A DNA stretch of 24,220 nucleotides, taken from IMG/VR virus record IMGVR_UViG_3300007539_000218, positions 1 to 24,220 of that record; one strand, written 5' to 3'. The notes below the pieces were generated by a model. It was given only the letters and a program-made list of their open reading frames with translations, ran no database searches and was not told where the DNA came from. Made by a program: the position numbers and the translations under genes. Positions 2,679-11,024 of the stretch are shown piece by piece. Source of the DNA: a virus. Positions within the stretch are counted from its first letter, which is position 1, and each line of letters begins with the position of its first letter.

Positions 2679-4013
2679 CTACTGATAAGAATCCCTTGCA
2701 ATATATATGTCGGTCTCCATTTTGCCACCTGCAGCGTATCGATGTGTAACACCACTGACCAAATAATTGCCAGAGTTTTTCTTATCAAGAACTGTGTTTT
2801 CCCCGTCCCATCTAGGCACATTGATAGTAATAACATTACCAGCAACGACACCAAAATTTCCAGGAACAGTAATTCTACCACTAATATGATCTAGTGATAA
2901 GAATCTGGACAAAGTATATGGTTTGGCATCAGCAGAAGTTTCATAGTTTCCCCCACTAATATTTTGTGCGGTTCTAATCGTCTTACCTGTTTGCCCACCA
3001 ATGGGTCCAGTATTATTAGTTGTGCTTTCTTCTCTTGTGATAGTATCCCCAAAAAGATGAGGTGATACACATGAATAGAAAACTCTCGATACTCCACCGA
3101 TCTGTTTTTCGACCTTCTGGAACTCTGAGAAGGGATTCGTACTTCCCAGATGACTCATTCTACCGTATGCTTCATTGATTGACCATCGTTTCGCTATGTT
3201 ATTTTCAGATTTCAAATTCACGAAATCAACACCGTAGAAGATACCACCGTAGGCACCCTTATTAAGATTCTCTTGTACATTTAGACCACTATCAATCACA
3301 TAGTTTCTAATTGCTAGTTGATCCTCTGGACCTGTGTTCTGAGCAACGTTCTTTGGTCTTAATGTAAACTCATACTTAGACTTTCCTTCACAGAGTTTAT
3401 CCATAGACACAAAATGAAATCCATCTAGTGCCTCATAGAATAGATATCCTGCTTGCCCTGGTTTGCTGCCACGAACTGCTTTTGCTGCTAGTTGAGCAAT
3501 AAAATCAAAGGGTCTGTAATTGGGACATATGAAAGATCCTGAGTGTTCTGTTGCTTCAATCTCAACTTTCTTTTGTGTGCCCAATCGTTTCTTCAGAACA
3601 TCACTGACAATTCCAGAGATCTTGGTATTCTTGTACGCAAATAAGAGTCTCTGATTGTCATTCAAATAACTCTCTCTAGAATTGAAGACTATATTATACT
3701 TCTTGACTTTCTCACCATCAACCAGATCACGAACCTCATTAAGATAAGTCTGCCATGTCATGCGACCACCAAATGATTCCATGTCAATATCTAGAACCTC
3801 CTGACCTACCAATTGTGTATAGAGACCTACGTTATCTTGAATGGTTAAAATAACTCTTACACTGGGACAGTCAATGCTTTGTAGAATTGTGACTCCCTGA
3901 ACATATGAAGTAATATCAGGAAATCTAGTTCCGTCTGCCTTTCTTAAAACAATACTATTAACTACAGCATCACCGACATTATTGATTCCTGCTGAGGATC
4001 TTTCCCTTGCCAT
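2679..4013 (-). CDS. Baseplate hub protein, gp27-like
   Basis: This 444-residue protein sits immediately before the spike gene gp5 and directly after the giant tail proteins. In many contractile systems that position holds the gp27/gpD hub, which carries the spike (T4 gp27 is 391 residues). It opens with a beta-rich section (SIVLRKADGTRFPDI, then VTILQSIDCPSVRVILTIQD) typical of the tube-like domains of hub proteins. A segment near residue 170 (FICPNYRPFDFIAQLAAKA) resembles the GPD-family 'few residues then FL/FI-QLA' pattern. The C-terminus again looks beta-rich (YLVSGVTHRYAAGGKMETDIYIARD), as in GPD/VgrG-like hubs. Its start overlaps the stop of the preceding gene (TAATG), which suggests coupled translation. 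The assignment rests on size, context and fold-like patterns, not on clear sequence identity to T4 gp27. Confidence 0.55.
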   Translation of the reverse strand: MARERSSAGINNVGDAVVNSIVLRKADGTRFPDITSYVQGVTILQSIDCPSVRVILTIQDNVGLYTQLVGQEVLDIDMESFGGRMTWQTYLNEVRDLVDGEKVKKYNIVFNSRESYLNDNQRLLFAYKNTKISGIVSDVLKKRLGTQKKVEIEATEHSGSFICPNYRPFDFIAQLAAKAVRGSKPGQAGYLFYEALDGFHFVSMDKLCEGKSKYEFTLRPKNVAQNTGPEDQLAIRNYVIDSGLNVQENLNKGAYGGIFYGVDFVNLKSENNIAKRWSINEAYGRMSHLGSTNPFSEFQKVEKQIGGVSRVFYSCVSPHLFGDTITREESTTNNTGPIGGQTGKTIRTAQNISGGNYETSADAKPYTLSRFLSLDHISGRITVPGNFGVVAGNVITINVPRWDGENTVLDKKNSGNYLVSGVTHRYAAGGKMETDIYIARDSYQ

Positions 4014-7000
4014 TACTTAACACCTCCACCAAGAATTTTACCTGCAATAGAACCAAGACTACCAGCAACGGTAGATGTGAGACTGGATCCAGAAGTAGAC
4101 TTCTGGAATCCAGGACTAGGTGTTCCACCACCCTGTTGTGCAGACTGAGATGCGTTGATAATTGCTTGCTGAATCATAGGTAGTATCTGTGCCATAGCCT
4201 GATCATTTAGAGCAGGTGGCAACTCTGCCATCTTGCCCTTTTCTACAAGGACACCAGCAATCACATCACTGGTAACCTTTACTAATTTATCTGTCAACAT
4301 GGTGGTTGCACCTTCCAAGTTCTGAATCTTGGCAGAATTCTGTTGAACCTGTTGTGTCTTGAGCAGTGCAGAGACCATCTTCACTGCGTTGACGTTCAGA
4401 ACTGTAGAACCACCAGGAACCAGAGCATTCTTTGCGTCAGGACCACCCATGGTGCCAGCAATCTTACCGACTGCAAAGTCTAAAGCACCCATACCAGCCT
4501 TCTTCAGGAAGTTTGATGCTCCAAGACCCTTACCTGCGACGTTCAGTGAGTCTAGTGTGCCACCAAACATCGATGTGAATCCAGGACCGAAGATCATCTC
4601 ACCACCTTGAGCAAGGATGTTGCCCATGTTGAAGTTGCCACTCATCAGTCCACTAAATGCATTATCAAATAACCCACCTGCGGACTGCATGAATCCACCG
4701 ACAGATCCACCGATCATATTACCGATACCACCAAATCCACCGATACCACCAAGTGCACCAGAGATAGCACCACCGATTCCACCACCCCCCATCATGCCAC
4801 TGATACCACCGATAGCAGCAGATGCTAGAGGTCCAATACCAGGAATAAATGATGCTGCAACTGGAGCAATAGCGCTTATTGCCTTACCGATACCACCACT
4901 AAATGCATCACCAATACCCTTTACAATACCACCAAGGAACATACGTTGTCCCTTGATTTGTGCTAATGCTTTGATTGTAGAATCCCAGGTTTTATGTGAT
5001 TTGTTACCACTAGCATATTGGTCATTATATGTACTGTCTTTTGTTCCACCCAGTCTACCTGCTGCAGTTGGACCTTGAGGCAAACCTCTCCAGGTTGGTG
5101 CTAGTTTAGCAGCAAACTCTTCGTTGGATATCTCTCCCTTGATCCAACGTTGCATACTATGACCACTATTGAGCATATCAATGGTCATTTTATCCTGAAC
5201 AGCAGGAGTAAACTTAGTGTTCTCGTCAAATCCTGATGTCTTTGCTCTACTCAAGATGTATCTTGGCATGTGCTGGTATCTACCAATAGCACCCTGAGCA
5301 TTCTTAGCTAACCAACCAATTGTTTTTTCAGTTGCCTTTGCGTTTGTTTTTCCTCTACTGGTATTGAATACATCATAGTTTCCATTTGATTCTACAGATG
5401 CAATCAAATCAAGAACACTCTTAGGGTCACCTCCAGGAGGACTCGTCCCTGTTGGTGTGGTCCCAGCTGGGTCTGTCCCTGTTGGTGTGGTCCCAGCTGG
5501 GTCTGTCGTTGTTGGTATTGTTGCAGCAGCTGCTGGACTTCCTCCAGGTAGAATACTCTTGAACCAATTCTTGATAGCATCGGTCATTGCTTCACCAAAG
5601 TCCTTTGCTGCCTGTTGATCTGATCCAGACAGACCCATAGCCTTATCCAGAATACCAGGATCAACACCAAAGATCTGTAGGATAGGACCCATCAATGTTT
5701 TTGCAATAGGTCCAAGCATATTGCCGATACCAAAAGGTATCTTACCTAACAAAGAACCTAGACCGATTAAGATTCCAGCACCTGCCATCTTGAGTGGCAT
5801 AGGAACGAGAGTTGCCATTCCCTGTGCCATCTTCTTACTGTTACCTAAGATAGCAGCAAGAGGATCATTACCAGAGTCAGTATATCTGTTCTTGATAGGA
5901 ACAACTGCTTCAGTTCCATGTGCTTCGATGGCACCACCACCAACATTGGCACGGTATCCAGAAGTCCTACCTCTAATAATACGAGCACCACCCTGAGCAG
6001 ATGGTCTTCCTGTTTGTCTTCTAAAAGGTACAATACCACCAGTTTCAAATGACCCCAGGACACTCATGGGATCACCAGCAGCACCACCCATCTCAAGGGT
6101 GTCGTTAAGTTGTGTCTTACCTTGTGCTGCCCCTGCAGGATCTGCTGATGGTGTGGATGCTTGCATTAGACCACCAACAGCAGCAGTGGTGACAATGGCA
6201 CCTAAAGCACCTTTGACGAGACCTCCTCCCTTCATTCTGCCAACACCAGCCTTAGTTGCCATGACAACTGCTTTACCAGCCTTAGCAGCAAGACCTAATG
6301 CCTTTGGTATCAGTCTGAATGCAGAGAAGATTCTCTTGACATCTTTAATAAGTTTGAAAGGATTCTTCAGATATCTGTTCACCATGAACAGAGAGAATAT
6401 CCCTACAGCAAACTGTAAGAATCCTTTAAGTCTATCTAATAGAGATGAATCACTAGCAAATATGTTAGTGAAACCTTCTAATGCATTGACAACTCCAAAC
6501 TCTACAAACTTGAAGATAATCTTACCAAGTTTTATTAAAACTTTTACTAGATCTACTGCAAGTTTTGCATTCTCTGGATTAGATAACCACTTCAATGCAC
6601 CATAAAGAACTAGAGTCTTCAGGAACTTGCCAATAGCAGCAAAAAATCCACCCCCACTTTCGGGTGTTGTATCTTCTGTACCTGATGCTGCAGCACTAGC
6701 AGGTTTTGCTTCTAATGCATTTTCTCTAGCACCTAGTCTAGCACGAGATGCTCTGATTCTTGCTTCTCTTGCTGATATTCTCTGATCTTTCGCAGCATTG
6801 ATCTTTCTCTTTCTATCCTCTGCTGCTAAACCTGCAATAGATTTATTGACCAGTCTAGCATTAGTGATCGATGCTTTGGTACTCTTATCAAGAGATAGTT
6901 TAATACTCTTCAGGATCCTGGTCTGTTCATTCAACTGACCACCAATTCTATTGAGAGCAAGGACTTGCATTCTTGGAGTCCCGTCACCTTTCGTCTTATA

Positions 7001-7084
7001 ATTTTTTCCAGCAATCTTTGCTGTCCCTCCAGTGGGTCTGACCCCACGAGGATTTACAAATTTATAGAAAGACGTTGCTGCCAT
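4013..7084 (-). CDS. Giant tape-measure-like tail protein with muramidase-like domain
   Basis: A 1023-residue, Gly/Ala-rich, hydrophobic protein. Residues 41-180 match the N-terminal part of the next giant gene (ALNRIG 43-48; LKWLSNPENA 164-173), so the two are paralogues. Several apolar helices follow (about 150-265). A low-complexity DPAGTTPTGT linker precedes a lysozyme/transglycosylase-like domain at about 555-710. There SVESNGNYDVFN places the likely catalytic Glu at 565, with GRYQHMP downstream, as in goose-type and soluble lytic transglycosylases. Residues about 720-850 are an extreme Gly/Ile/Met-rich, membrane-like region. Tail proteins that combine apolar helices with peptidoglycan-cutting domains are usually tape measures ejected during infection, and its place after gp26/gp51 fits that. 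It could instead be an inner-tail or hub-associated protein. ATG at 7084, five bases after the previous stop. Confidence 0.65.
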   Translation of the reverse strand: MAATSFYKFVNPRGVRPTGGTAKIAGKNYKTKGDGTPRMQVLALNRIGGQLNEQTRILKSIKLSLDKSTKASITNARLVNKSIAGLAAEDRKRKINAAKDQRISAREARIRASRARLGARENALEAKPASAAASGTEDTTPESGGGFFAAIGKFLKTLVLYGALKWLSNPENAKLAVDLVKVLIKLGKIIFKFVEFGVVNALEGFTNIFASDSSLLDRLKGFLQFAVGIFSLFMVNRYLKNPFKLIKDVKRIFSAFRLIPKALGLAAKAGKAVVMATKAGVGRMKGGGLVKGALGAIVTTAAVGGLMQASTPSADPAGAAQGKTQLNDTLEMGGAAGDPMSVLGSFETGGIVPFRRQTGRPSAQGGARIIRGRTSGYRANVGGGAIEAHGTEAVVPIKNRYTDSGNDPLAAILGNSKKMAQGMATLVPMPLKMAGAGILIGLGSLLGKIPFGIGNMLGPIAKTLMGPILQIFGVDPGILDKAMGLSGSDQQAAKDFGEAMTDAIKNWFKSILPGGSPAAAATIPTTTDPAGTTPTGTDPAGTTPTGTSPPGGDPKSVLDLIASVESNGNYDVFNTSRGKTNAKATEKTIGWLAKNAQGAIGRYQHMPRYILSRAKTSGFDENTKFTPAVQDKMTIDMLNSGHSMQRWIKGEISNEEFAAKLAPTWRGLPQGPTAAGRLGGTKDSTYNDQYASGNKSHKTWDSTIKALAQIKGQRMFLGGIVKGIGDAFSGGIGKAISAIAPVAASFIPGIGPLASAAIGGISGMMGGGGIGGAISGALGGIGGFGGIGNMIGGSVGGFMQSAGGLFDNAFSGLMSGNFNMGNILAQGGEMIFGPGFTSMFGGTLDSLNVAGKGLGASNFLKKAGMGALDFAVGKIAGTMGGPDAKNALVPGGSTVLNVNAVKMVSALLKTQQVQQNSAKIQNLEGATTMLTDKLVKVTSDVIAGVLVEKGKMAELPPALNDQAMAQILPMIQQAIINASQSAQQGGGTPSPGFQKSTSGSSLTSTVAGSLGSIAGKILGGGVK
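5445..5516 (-). repeat. 30-bp tandem repeat inside the giant tail gene
   Basis: Two perfect 30-bp units (5445-5474 and 5475-5504) are followed by a partial, diverging third (5505-5516). In frame they encode repeats of the decapeptide DPAGTTPTGT, a flexible linker just before the muramidase-like domain. The unit is a multiple of three, so copy number can vary without breaking the frame. Confidence 0.9.
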
Positions 7085-7089
7085 TTATA

Positions 7090-10000
7090 TTATCGACCGA
7101 AAGTTGATAGTGGTGATGGGGGTGCAGATCCACCACCTGCACCAGATTCTGCGGACATTGGTGTTGGGATTGGCATAATAATTCTCTGGACAGCACCGAT
7201 CTCAACAGGAGCTCTAGTGATACCAGGATGCAAGATACTCTCTCTATTTATCCCCGATGACTGACCCATCACTCTTGCACCACGAGTCTCAGCAACTTTT
7301 ACAAGACCACCAAGATTCTTACGTTCATAATCTTCAGGTTTATATTTCTTGCCCTGTGCCTCTGATGCTTTAATTCTTGTAGCAATAATATTCTCAGATG
7401 GAACCTCACCTGCGACACCACCAGTAGTAAATCGACCAAAGTTTACAATACCACCATGGTTCATTCTCTGCCTAATCATTTCACGAATCTTCTCTGGACC
7501 CGACCACATCTTGTCACCTTGCTTTAGTTTTGCGAGGTCCCACTTTCCACCCTGATTAGGCAGTTCTCCGTGAGTAGGTACAGTTTCTTTGGTGATGTCT
7601 GCTGCAGTCCACCCCCAATTCTTTGCAAGATTTGCAACTGCCTGAGCAAGACTTTTTACCTGAATGTCTTTGACTGGATATCTACCGAAATTGTTTTCCG
7701 ATGCCCCTGCCATTGCTGAGATTGAGAAAGAAGCATTGCCACTGTTGTTATTGTACGTGTGATATGGTGGACTCTGACCAAATGATGAGTGTCCTGGGTG
7801 CCTATTGGGAACAACAGAACCATCACCTTTCACATAACGGTGATAACCTGCCCATCCAAAATTTGCCATGATAGATCTATCATCATTATATGAACCTGCA
7901 GTCCAGTGCAAGATGATTTTTTTATTCTTCTTATTCTTACTAGTCTTATCGTCACCTATACCTGCAATTGATGGTGAGGCAGTTTCTCCTTTTGCTTTCA
8001 AGAATGCCTGAACCATGCCTGTGTTCGCAGCATTTCCATCTGCATCTGTGGTGTGTCTTAGACGACCACCAATTCCATTTATACCACCTTCATAAAACTG
8101 AAGTCCCGAACCAGTGTTGACTGCATGGAATTTTTGACCTTTGTCATCCTCAAAGAAAAACTTTTCATTCTCTTTAATTCCATAGTTTTTGTTTGGATCA
8201 AGTATGGGTGCACCTGTTGATCTTTTCACAGACTCTTCATCACCTAAACCTAGCAGGTTTGTGAGTCCAGGTGTAATACTTCTAGCAAGATCTGTAGCAG
8301 CACTTGGCAAATTGCTCAACCAACCTTTTAGTATCTCACCTAGAGCATCTTTGATTGGTTGTACAGTTGCTTGGAAGAATTTATTAAGGTGTTCCTTGAC
8401 CTGATTCTTTGCCGAGATGACAGGTGCCAGCATAGGAGTCTCACTTAGAGAGACAACACCTGCACCAAATGCTCTCTTTGCTGCAAACAACTGAGGACCA
8501 AACTCATTCCTTAGAATCTCACCACCAGGCATAATGTTGAGAAGTTCAGTAAGTGCTCCAACCAAGAAGTTTCCAGACTTCGTTCTAGGATCGTAAGCAT
8601 CAAATCCAGGACCTCTACCAGTTTCAGCACCTGGCAGTTTAGAACCAAACTCTTTGACTGTATTCATGATTGGTTCTAGTCCAAGAGACTTGACTAGCTT
8701 GTCCTCAGCATCTGTGATACCAGGAACCATACCACGAATAAAATTGTAAATATCTAGACCCATGGAAACCATAGGTCCCCATTGACCACCAGGAACCAAT
8801 CCAATCAGATCGAATGCACCAGAGGTAAACTCCAATAGTGCTCCGATCGGGTCACCATTTTTCAGTGCCTCATATCCAAAGTATAGGTTTGCAATACCAC
8901 CAACAATAGGAATTGCTTTCGATCCGATCTTCTTCATCAGACCTTCACTACCTTTGCCACCTAGTTCTTTCAGAATCTTGGCACCTTTAGGTCCAAGAAC
9001 ATTCATTAGTTTCTTTTCAATAGAACCTTTCAGTCCCCTCAGTTTACTTAGTAAAGGTTTTACATATTCAATAGCAGGTTGCACAAGTTTTCTCAAGGCA
9101 GCATCTTTAATGCCATTCAAACCTTGACCAACCTTGACTAGTCCAGACTGAAAACCATTACCAAGTTTCTTAAGACCAGCACCAGCATCACCAATACTTT
9201 TTCGTGCACCTTCTGCAACACGACCACCAAAGTTCTTTGCTCTTTGAAATTGTCTCTCAAAAAAGTTTGGACCTGAGGGTTTTGGTTTGGGTTTGGGTTT
9301 ACCACCAGGAACATCTCCACCACTAGTCTCTTTAGGTGGTTTGATTCCAGCAATACCACTAATGATATCCCAAATAAACTTCAATGATCCAATAGGATTC
9401 AATAGGAATGCAACTGATCCGATGGCAGGTAGACCTTTCAACAGGTCACCAAAACCTGTCATCAGTTCACCGACTTCACCACTCTTGACACCATTGATGA
9501 TCTTACCAATACCACCTGCAGCAGATCCAATACCATCTAATGCCCAGGTGGTCCATCCAACAACAAACTTTGCAAGAGGTTTTAACACCCACTTGTAGAA
9601 ATTTCCAAATGCATCAGCAAATCTTCTTGCATTGTTTGGATCGGACAACCACTTGAAAGCTGCCCCCATAACAAATGTTTTGAATAGTGCCCCACCGATT
9701 GCACGGAAGAATCCAAAGACACCATTCAGAATACCTAGTCCACCACCATCATCAACAGGTTTCTTATCTAAATTCTTTGCTGCTGCCTGAGAAGGTGTTG
9801 TTGGTCTTCGTCTCTGTAGATTGGGTGCTGCTAATTGTGGTCTTCTCTTCTGTCCGTTTAATCTTTTTAGTGCAGTTCTTCTTCTCTCAATATCATTAAA
9901 GAGAGACTTCTGAATCTTGTGATCTACATTGCGTCTTCTCGTCAAAGAATTTGCAATGCTACTTAGAATTGTATTGTTGGTGGAGATCTGTTTGCCCACA

Positions 10001-10101
10001 CCATTTAATGCCTTGACTGTAGGCGATGATGCTCCACCAACCTCTCTATATTGTTGAGGTTTTTGTGCTAATTTGTTCTGTGGTTTAGCAAGTGTCGCCA
10101 T
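7090..10101 (-). CDS. Giant tape-measure-like tail protein with amidase-like domain
   Basis: A 1003-residue protein, directly after gp51 (TAAATG junction). The N-terminus is basic and helical (residues 30-110). Residues 118-200 are apolar and match the neighbouring giant protein (FKWLSDPNNA 149-158), and further Gly-rich apolar helices follow to about 470. Residues about 725-870 form an amidase_2/PGRP-like domain: IILHWTAG gives a candidate zinc His at 732, YHRYVKGDGSVV follows, NSGNASFSISAMAG is the central strand, and VPTHGE gives a second His at 844, with KWDL near 855 in the place of the usual K/D-P-G end. This suggests N-acetylmuramoyl-L-alanine amidase activity that locally opens the host wall. 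Position after the gp26/gp51 chaperone pair supports a tape-measure role. The precise role of each giant protein cannot be settled from sequence alone. Confidence 0.65.
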   Translation of the reverse strand: MATLAKPQNKLAQKPQQYREVGGASSPTVKALNGVGKQISTNNTILSSIANSLTRRRNVDHKIQKSLFNDIERRRTALKRLNGQKRRPQLAAPNLQRRRPTTPSQAAAKNLDKKPVDDGGGLGILNGVFGFFRAIGGALFKTFVMGAAFKWLSDPNNARRFADAFGNFYKWVLKPLAKFVVGWTTWALDGIGSAAGGIGKIINGVKSGEVGELMTGFGDLLKGLPAIGSVAFLLNPIGSLKFIWDIISGIAGIKPPKETSGGDVPGGKPKPKPKPSGPNFFERQFQRAKNFGGRVAEGARKSIGDAGAGLKKLGNGFQSGLVKVGQGLNGIKDAALRKLVQPAIEYVKPLLSKLRGLKGSIEKKLMNVLGPKGAKILKELGGKGSEGLMKKIGSKAIPIVGGIANLYFGYEALKNGDPIGALLEFTSGAFDLIGLVPGGQWGPMVSMGLDIYNFIRGMVPGITDAEDKLVKSLGLEPIMNTVKEFGSKLPGAETGRGPGFDAYDPRTKSGNFLVGALTELLNIMPGGEILRNEFGPQLFAAKRAFGAGVVSLSETPMLAPVISAKNQVKEHLNKFFQATVQPIKDALGEILKGWLSNLPSAATDLARSITPGLTNLLGLGDEESVKRSTGAPILDPNKNYGIKENEKFFFEDDKGQKFHAVNTGSGLQFYEGGINGIGGRLRHTTDADGNAANTGMVQAFLKAKGETASPSIAGIGDDKTSKNKKNKKIILHWTAGSYNDDRSIMANFGWAGYHRYVKGDGSVVPNRHPGHSSFGQSPPYHTYNNNSGNASFSISAMAGASENNFGRYPVKDIQVKSLAQAVANLAKNWGWTAADITKETVPTHGELPNQGGKWDLAKLKQGDKMWSGPEKIREMIRQRMNHGGIVNFGRFTTGGVAGEVPSENIIATRIKASEAQGKKYKPEDYERKNLGGLVKVAETRGARVMGQSSGINRESILHPGITRAPVEIGAVQRIIMPIPTPMSAESGAGGGSAPPSPLSTFGR
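7245..7252 (-). promoter_or_regulatory. Possible internal late promoter
   Basis: Minus strand GATAAATA, one base from the T4 late consensus, lies inside the end of the amidase-carrying gene, about 160 bases before the next ATG at 7084. It could boost the downstream giant gene, but an 8-base match inside coding sequence is weak evidence. Confidence 0.25.
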
Positions 10102-10302
10102 TTAACCTTCGTATGGTGCTGATGGTTGGTTTTGTTTCTGCATCTCACGTTCCTGCTCAAGATGTTGAGTCAGCATGATCACATACAAATCCCTTTCCCA
10201 GGGCATCAAACTATCTATCTCAGTTAGACTCCACTTGTGATGTTGCACTAGGGCAAAATTAGTTCGGTAATAATTTTCCAAACTAGAGTACAACATACTC
10301 AC
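10102..10302 (-). CDS. 51: Baseplate hub assembly protein gp51-like (possible frameshift extension of gp26)
   Basis: A 66-residue protein with the pattern W-x3-EID-LMPWERDLYVIML (residues about 24-44), which resembles the second part of tail-assembly chaperones and cyanophage gp51. In T4, gp51 helps assemble the central hub and is not retained in the virion. It lies in the -1 frame of gp26 and overlaps its stop. The open frame can start at GTG 10302 or ATG 10296, but neither has a well-spaced Shine-Dalgarno; the only purine-rich sequence (GAGGGA 10325-10320) is 17 bases before the GTG. That makes expression as a gp26-gp51 fusion by -1 frameshifting attractive. The following tape-measure-like gene starts immediately after its stop. 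Confidence 0.6.
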   Translation of the reverse strand: MSMLYSSLENYYRTNFALVQHHKWSLTEIDSLMPWERDLYVIMLTQHLEQEREMQKQNQPSAPYEG

Positions 10303-10325
10303 CCGAAAAAAGACGCAAGTCCCTC
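10286..10325 (-). promoter_or_regulatory. Candidate programmed -1 ribosomal frameshift signal
   Basis: Reading the minus strand in the gp26 frame, GAGGGA (10325-10320) lies 8 bases before the heptamer T TTT TTC (10311-10305), which is correctly phased as X XXY YYZ. Four bases later comes a 5-bp hairpin, GAGTA-TGTTG-TACTC (10300-10286). The gp26 TGA stop is at 10301-10299, one codon after the heptamer. A -1 slip continues as CGG GTG AGT ATG straight into gp51. Upstream SD-like element, slippery heptamer and downstream hairpin are the same three parts found in bacterial dnaX frameshifting. Confidence 0.6.
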
Positions 10326-11024
10326 AAGAACAACTTCACTCTTCACTTTAGTCTCTGGATTAGTGACTTCAGTTTTCCATTGCAACTTAGGCATGGTTTC
10401 AAAGAATGATTGCAGTTTCATAAACTGATCGTTAGTCAGACTCTCCAAGAATTCAGTGACTTCTTTCTTGGTACAGTCTTTAGTTTCCCACACTTCTTCA
10501 CCTTGGAAGATTTGTGAGATACAACCTGCAGCAATAGAGAAGACAGCGTCAACAGAATCTGATTGAGTAGTTCCTTCACCAGAGATGTTCTCTTTCACAA
10601 AGGTATCAAGACTAGGATAAGTCATGACAACACCAGTGTCATCATCAAGCATGATCTTGGGATCATGACCCTCAGGTTTTTCACATACAACTTCCTCTAG
10701 AGGAACTTTGATCTTAATTTCTGTCACACCGTCGTCAGGTGCAGTGATAATAACATCTGCTTCTTCACCTGCTGACTTAGCACGAATGCGAAGGAACAGA
10801 TATTCGATGTCAAACGTGGGAAGATTATCAATCTTACGTTTGATCGATGTGCAGTTACGGATGATAGACTTGACAGCATTCATCATGTCTTTTTCACTGT
10901 TCGATTCCATAGCCATCAGAAGAATCTTCTCTTCCTTAACCAGGAACGGACGGTATTTTACTTTTTCACCTGTAGAAGGCAACTCACATTCGTACTCAGG
11001 TACGACAAGCTTTGGCAAAGGCAT
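10299..11024 (-). CDS. 26: Baseplate hub assembly protein gp26
   Basis: A 241-residue protein that resembles T4 gp26 (208 residues; the T4 baseplate family of hub-assembly proteins). Recognisable parts are the start (MPLPKLVVPEYECELPSTG), the conserved VKYRPFLVKEEKILLMAMES segment (residues about 22-41), and the helical C-terminal part with CTKKEVTEFLESL and MKLQSFFETMPKLQW. These resemble tail chaperone proteins that bind the tape measure during assembly. It is followed by gp51 in the -1 frame with a candidate frameshift signal in its last four codons, then by the tape-measure-like genes. This is the same order as chaperone, frameshifted chaperone and tape measure in lambda-like phages. Confidence 0.75.
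   Translation of the reverse strand: MPLPKLVVPEYECELPSTGEKVKYRPFLVKEEKILLMAMESNSEKDMMNAVKSIIRNCTSIKRKIDNLPTFDIEYLFLRIRAKSAGEEADVIITAPDDGVTEIKIKVPLEEVVCEKPEGHDPKIMLDDDTGVVMTYPSLDTFVKENISGEGTTQSDSVDAVFSIAAGCISQIFQGEEVWETKDCTKKEVTEFLESLTNDQFMKLQSFFETMPKLQWKTEVTNPETKVKSEVVLEGLASFFG

Follow-up and report, generated by a model that had tools for sequence, protein, structure and literature searches.

In the T4-like cyanophages, which belong to the most abundant marine viruses, two large adjacent genes of the baseplate hub cluster, here termed X1 and X2, encode proteins whose lengths co-evolve, a relationship that is new in this work. Over 63 pairs, with lengths ranging from 393 to 1565 aa, the length of X1 correlates with that of X2 (r = 0.89), and independent contrasts on a gp26+gp27 tree retain this relationship (r = 0.82, with a sign agreement of 84%), with control contrasts of X1 or X2 against flanking genes falling between -0.07 and -0.26. 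Furthermore, the length of X1 is predicted better by the X2 of the same phage than by the X2 of the most closely related phage (0.89 vs. 0.59; Wilcoxon test on length ratios, p = 5e-4). Using a seed-based, incomplete detection of domains, the relationship is also observed after subtraction of the detected enzyme domains (r = 0.73) and in the 21 pairs without any detected enzyme (r = 0.82). Matched spans are to be expected if both proteins fill one tube, and we consider it reasonably probable that the two paralogues are of the tape-measure type, lie together in the lumen of the tail, and bring hydrolases to the wall as the DNA enters.

The window analyzed here is an entire viral record of 24,220 bases, probably a genome fragment, from a T4-like cyanophage in which homologues of gp26, gp2, gp4, gp48, gp53, and gp32 were found and whose closest phage records are Synechococcus and Prochlorococcus phages. 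Transcription of the locus proceeds on the minus strand, which also carries the protein domains described below, from a gp26-like baseplate hub gene that serves as upstream anchor (10299–11024; Pfam T4_baseplate), through a small gp51-like gene of 66 aa (10102–10302), annotated as gp51 at the equivalent position in P-SSM2, S-PM2, and Syn9, to X1 (7090–10101; 1003 aa), X2 (4013–7084; 1023 aa), and the downstream anchor, a tail/hub gene in the gp27 position assigned through its PHROG 350 match and gene order (2679–4013). The original prediction, made from the sequence alone, had placed two proteins of about 1000 residues at 4013–10101, and both are found there, its protein A being X2 and its protein B being X1. 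A terminator-like inverted repeat followed by a T run (CCCCCGAGTTTTTTTCGGGGG) was spotted by eye at positions 2210–2240, in the interval that separates the hub gene from the gene that follows.

X1 and X2 share an N-terminal module (approximately residues 1–250 of X1, 9352–10101, and residues 1–260 of X2, 6305–7084), as had been proposed from short motifs that do occur at the residues reported (ALNGVG at 31 and FKWLSDPNNA at 149 in X1; ALNRIG at 43 and LKWLSNPENA at 164 in X2). Both BLASTP (E about 7e-11 to 1e-10, 32% over 148 aa) and HMM profile comparison detect this homology. In the clade of the window, the X1 and X2 profiles align over 213 columns with a hhalign probability of 99.9% (E = 6e-37, the E-value of a single comparison), and the modules of the other three clades yield 98.5%, 94.3%, and 93.9%, the last two from profiles of 3 and 2 members. 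Homology between the N-terminal regions is also apparent within single phages, such as Syn9 (2e-22), Syn30 (5e-20), S-CAM8 (2e-15), P-SSM7 (6e-13), S-CREM1 (6e-13), and S-H34 (2e-5). The module HMM matches 206 of the 3560 ORFs in the surveyed loci, all of them of at least 350 aa and, with rare exceptions, one or two per locus, with 3 reversed decoys matched in the control. In the window clade, a FastTree tree splits 32 X1 and 32 X2 modules without error (support 0.88), indicating that a single duplication predates that clade. The predicted duplication is hence borne out by BLASTP, profile comparison, and phylogeny, and the sequence evidence places it as an old event, which took place before the clade of the window diversified. 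Within the S-PM2 and S-CREM2 clades, paralogues match each other and barely match those of other clades, and separate duplications or homogenization are possible explanations. A PDB search with the N-terminal module profile returned nothing but designed helical proteins (E about 0.6). A further conserved module, GGWISGPQSGYxVSLDGGRSTxFIGHGxEYV, was observed in 33 X2 and 2 X1 proteins (e.g., at approximately residues 280–375 of the X2 protein of locus L003).

The tandem pair had been regarded as an oddity for a T4-like tail, and it turns out instead to be near-universal in T4-like cyanophages. In a survey of 67 non-redundant T4-like loci with gp26 and a hub gene, compiled from annotated phages and IMG/VR contigs, 63 present exactly two large genes between gp51 and the hub gene, in the order gp26-gp51-X1-X2-hub. 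Three loci (L094, L096, and L172) encode one large gene in this interval, and the remaining one, from Pelagibacter phage Mosig, has a different hub gene order and a single candidate of 655 aa for which profile comparison detected no homology to X1 or X2 modules. Mosig is classified under Kyanoviridae. The GenBank gene-cluster numbers of 2010 assign the X1 and X2 proteins of each phage to clusters of their own (T4-GC 13/14, 335/336, 669/670, and 726/727), and for this reason they did not emerge as core genes. The cyanophage papers cited here identify no tape measure for T4-like cyanophages, and a search of open-access full texts, as distinct from the subscription literature, yielded no report of two tape measures or of tandem tape-measure paralogues in cyanophages.

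As predicted, the two proteins of the window carry different wall-cutting domains. Residues 725–855 of X1 (7537–7929) match Pfam Amidase_2 (PF01510) with 27.3 bits, above the gathering cut-off of 26, and His732, His844, and Asp855 occupy what we take to be the places of the Amidase_2 zinc ligands, in agreement with the amidase-like domain proposed for this protein. The X2 domain (approximately residues 552–700, 4985–5431), which had been described as muramidase-like, is of a glycan-cutting type, as proposed, and belongs by profile match with the lambda-type (GH104-type) lysozymes rather than with muramidases. This domain has no Pfam match, and PDB searches with single sequences of it and of the amidase returned nothing useful, but a 14-sequence profile of the X2 domain retrieves both lambda lysozyme (1AM7/3D3D; E about 1e-8) and the lysozyme domain of the cyanophage A-1(L) hub (8KEA; E = 2e-10). 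In the alignment, its conserved Glu565 coincides with the catalytic Glu of the lambda enzyme, and the domain is probably a lytic transglycosylase.

Enzyme modules move between the two slots. Across the set, X1 proteins carry the Pfam families VanY, Amidase_2, GH19, Phage_lysozyme, Phage_lysozyme2, SLT, and C39, and X2 proteins carry M23, Phage_lysozyme, Hydrolase_2, M15_3, Phage_lysozyme2, SLT, SLT_3, Amidase_2, and Glucosaminidase, while the lambda-type domain, overlooked by Pfam, resides in X1 in some phages and in X2 in others (17 proteins in total). The window displays this exchange directly. Its X1 core (residues 320–520, 8542–9144) is matched only by X1 proteins, apart from two single-X proteins and the X2 of locus L040, the wider stretch of residues 281–560 likewise matches X1 proteins, and the N-terminal part of its X2 (residues 81–280) has its best matches in the X2 proteins of other phages. 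The amidase of X1, on the other hand, matches chiefly X2 proteins, the slot that Amidase_2 occupies in most other phages, and a hydrophobic, Gly-rich element of X2 (residues 714–825, 4610–4945) matches 24 X1 and 3 X2 proteins in the whole set. The window slots have hence exchanged parts between X1 and X2, and the domain swapping put forward in the original prediction is seen both here and across relatives. Glycan- and peptide-cutting domains, as identified with seeds, are both present in 23 of the 63 pairs, often within one protein, and complementary cutting was dropped as a general rule on this count. Also observed in X1 proteins were a C39-like/papain-like cysteine protease domain in locus L031 (10896–14165; residues 748–872) and, in one member of a 60-protein X1 alignment (A4), ADP-ribosyltransferase Pfam matches (PF01129, E = 1e-5; PF03496, E = 2e-4), which may mark an effector domain that is carried on a tape-measure-type protein and injected.

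The lengths of both proteins follow that of the tail. Published micrographs from different laboratories provided tail lengths for 12 isolates (PMC2771037, PMC8557907, PMC9146016, PMC10436341, PMC7472177, PMC9964418, PMC9602691, PMC2984593, PMC10665884), here listed with X1/X2 lengths in residues: P-SSM2 (100 nm, 529/516), S-SRM01 (about 100 nm, 536/636), S-SZBM1 (113.6 nm, treated as an uncontracted value, 893/780), MS29 (124 nm, 932/990), S-H34 (129 nm, 936/735), S-N03 (138 nm, 933/722), Syn9 (150 nm, 1111/1051), S-CREM1 (165 nm, 1016/991), S-SCSM1 (173 nm, 950/1131), S-PM2 (180 nm, or 200 nm in another source, 1167/749), P-SSM4 (200 nm, 1064/1079), and S-CREM2 (418 nm, 1565/1456). In these purely correlational statistics, which ignore relatedness, the Spearman coefficient against tail length is 0.93 for X1 (0.91 without S-CREM2) and 0.78 for X2 (0.72 without S-CREM2), and with S-CREM2 left out the slope for mean X length is 0.146 nm per residue, close to the rise of an alpha-helix. 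In S-CREM2, which has the longest cyanomyovirus tail, X1 is lengthened by a Ser/Thr/Asn-rich tract (approximately residues 476–775) and X2 by 27 short repeats of the FQQ(S/T)xG type (residues 773–1296), so that the two extensions are mutually unrelated low-complexity sequences. Its 418 nm tail exceeds the span of 1565 alpha-helical residues (about 235 nm). An end-to-end arrangement of X1 and X2 as a single tape was rejected, since their summed length at 0.15 nm per residue overshoots the tails of P-SSM2 and Syn9.

In the model that we favor, X1 and X2 would occupy the tail tube, their spans matched to each other, jointly filling the place that gp29 has in T4. Both would run along one tube with their C-termini near the hub, where docking is suggested by analogy with A-1(L); in many proteins of both slots, the C-terminus consists of a Pro/hydrophobic stretch followed by a Gly-rich spacer and a short tail. 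Each can bear one or more peptidoglycan hydrolases and, upon tail contraction, the two proteins would precede the DNA out of the tube and breach the wall. For the phage of the window, X1 would cut the MurNAc-L-Ala amide bond through its Amidase_2 domain, and X2 would cut the glycan strand through its lambda-type lytic transglycosylase domain. The account first given of this pair is thus supported as regards duplication, domain swapping, and a tape-measure-like nature, the last supported by the relation to tail length and by the matches of relatives to PHROG tape-measure families, and is revised as regards the rarity of the arrangement and the muramidase type.

A possible, if tentative, elaboration is a heteromeric tape measure in which both proteins are combined in a single mixed bundle, for instance with three copies of each, six-stranded like that of A-1(L). 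Such a bundle would present two different C-termini to a three-fold hub and deliver two different wall-cutting enzymes together; tail length would change through coordinated extension of the two paralogues, and the enzymes through transfer of modules from one to the other. A rather unlikely alternative holds that X1 alone is the tape measure and that X2, a derived paralogue, acts as an ejected wall-cutting (pilot) protein in the same tube, its length following that of X1 because it must fit the same space. Tail length is tracked more tightly by X1 than by X2 (0.93 vs. 0.78), more enzyme families are found in X2, and single-X proteins are X1-like, that of S-CRM01 by its two ends and those of L094 and L172 by their X1 core. 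The tighter relation to the tail and the X1-like nature of single-X proteins favor X1 as the principal one of the two. However, X2 retains the N-terminal module and tracks X1 length even in pairs without a detected enzyme, and X2 relatives match PHROG tape-measure families as well.

Copy number bears on the same question. The cluster C cyanophage S-CRM01 (L193, 64000–74000) has a single X protein of 864 aa, both ends of which match the X1 of S-N03 and S-H34, and which carries a region assigned by eye as an M15-like peptidase as well as a phage lysozyme, the latter residing on X2 in sister phages; it thereby unites enzyme domains that its sisters spread over two proteins. S-CRM01 has a tail of 140–170 nm (PMC10665884), and one X is therefore enough for a tail. 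Conversely, IMGVR_UViG_3300020190_000429 (L098, 5706–14164) encodes three tandem X genes between gp51 and the hub gene (827, 950, and 1039 aa), of which the second and the third, next to the hub gene, are both X2-like with different enzyme domains; that the third gene is a second X2 again agrees with X1 alone being the tape measure. These two loci rule out a strict need for a pair, and the extra X copies are added enzyme carriers.

It is improbable that neither protein is a tape measure, with X1 and X2 being wall-cutting proteins associated with the baseplate and the true tape measure lying elsewhere in the genome, for which the fragmentary window would leave room. No homology between X1 or X2 and T4 gp29 (PHROG 1283) was detected by hhalign in any clade (probability 0.1–16%), and the Gly-rich, low-complexity stretches of these proteins are unlike the helical gp29. 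Their genes, however, lie in the hub-gene cluster at the point where T4 has gp29, their lengths vary with the tail, and they often lack a detected enzyme. Outside the enzyme domains, matches to PHROG tape-measure families, with modest E-values, are seen for several relatives of X1 and for some of X2; the PHROG matches of the window X1 and X2 are restricted to uncharacterized or "endolysin" families.

PHROG 1200 and 790 and GenBank cyanophage records name such proteins "endolysin", "lysozyme murein", or hypothetical. Both proteins are reported in the virion proteome of S-SCSM1 (PMC9602691) and in S-CREM2 virions, with 73 unique peptides for X1 and 71 for X2 (PMC10665884); a text search of the published S-SZBM1 list did not return the pair. 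The reading that these names would support, soluble endolysins acting in lysis at the end of infection, is scarcely credible for proteins of about 1000 aa, much of whose length is non-enzymatic, encoded inside a baseplate gene cluster, present through their relatives in purified virions (PMC10665884, PMC9602691), and in many pairs devoid of a detected enzyme. The enzyme names given to these virion-type proteins are hence probably misleading. One to three paralogous tape-measure-type proteins would instead offer an explanation, open to testing, both of tail length, with the 418-nm tail of S-CREM2 as one case, and of enzyme swapping, and prompt the question of whether two different subunits can together make up a tape measure.

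X1 and X2 can be compared with several known systems. They share with T4 gp29 the position in the hub cluster and, in members with short tails like P-SSM2 (529/516 aa, 100 nm), a similar length per nm of tail, but T4 has one tape measure without a hydrolase, whereas the cyanophages mostly have two, with hydrolases. The X2 domain aligns with lambda lysozyme R (GH104-type, PDB 1AM7) at the catalytic Glu and the GRYQ region; the lambda enzyme is a free endolysin, whereas the X2 domain is embedded in a virion-type protein of 1023 aa. Wall-cutting motifs in tape measures are already known from mycobacteriophage TM4 and from phiCbK, whose gp95 has a CHAP domain (PMC3556154). As in X1 and X2, a tail-lumen-type protein bears a peptidoglycan hydrolase in these phages, but there it is a single protein, whereas the cyanophages have between one and three paralogues, with correlated lengths and an exchange of enzyme modules among them. 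The Anabaena myophage A-1(L) is likewise a cyanophage with a contractile tail, its hub lysozyme domain matches the X2 domain (8KEA), and its tape measure has been resolved by cryo-EM as a six-stranded bundle with three C-terminal helices docking on a three-fold spike (PMC10966104). In A-1(L), however, it is the hub (gp15) that bears the enzymes, and there is one tape measure (gp13), whereas in the T4-like cyanophages described here the enzymes are on X1 and X2.
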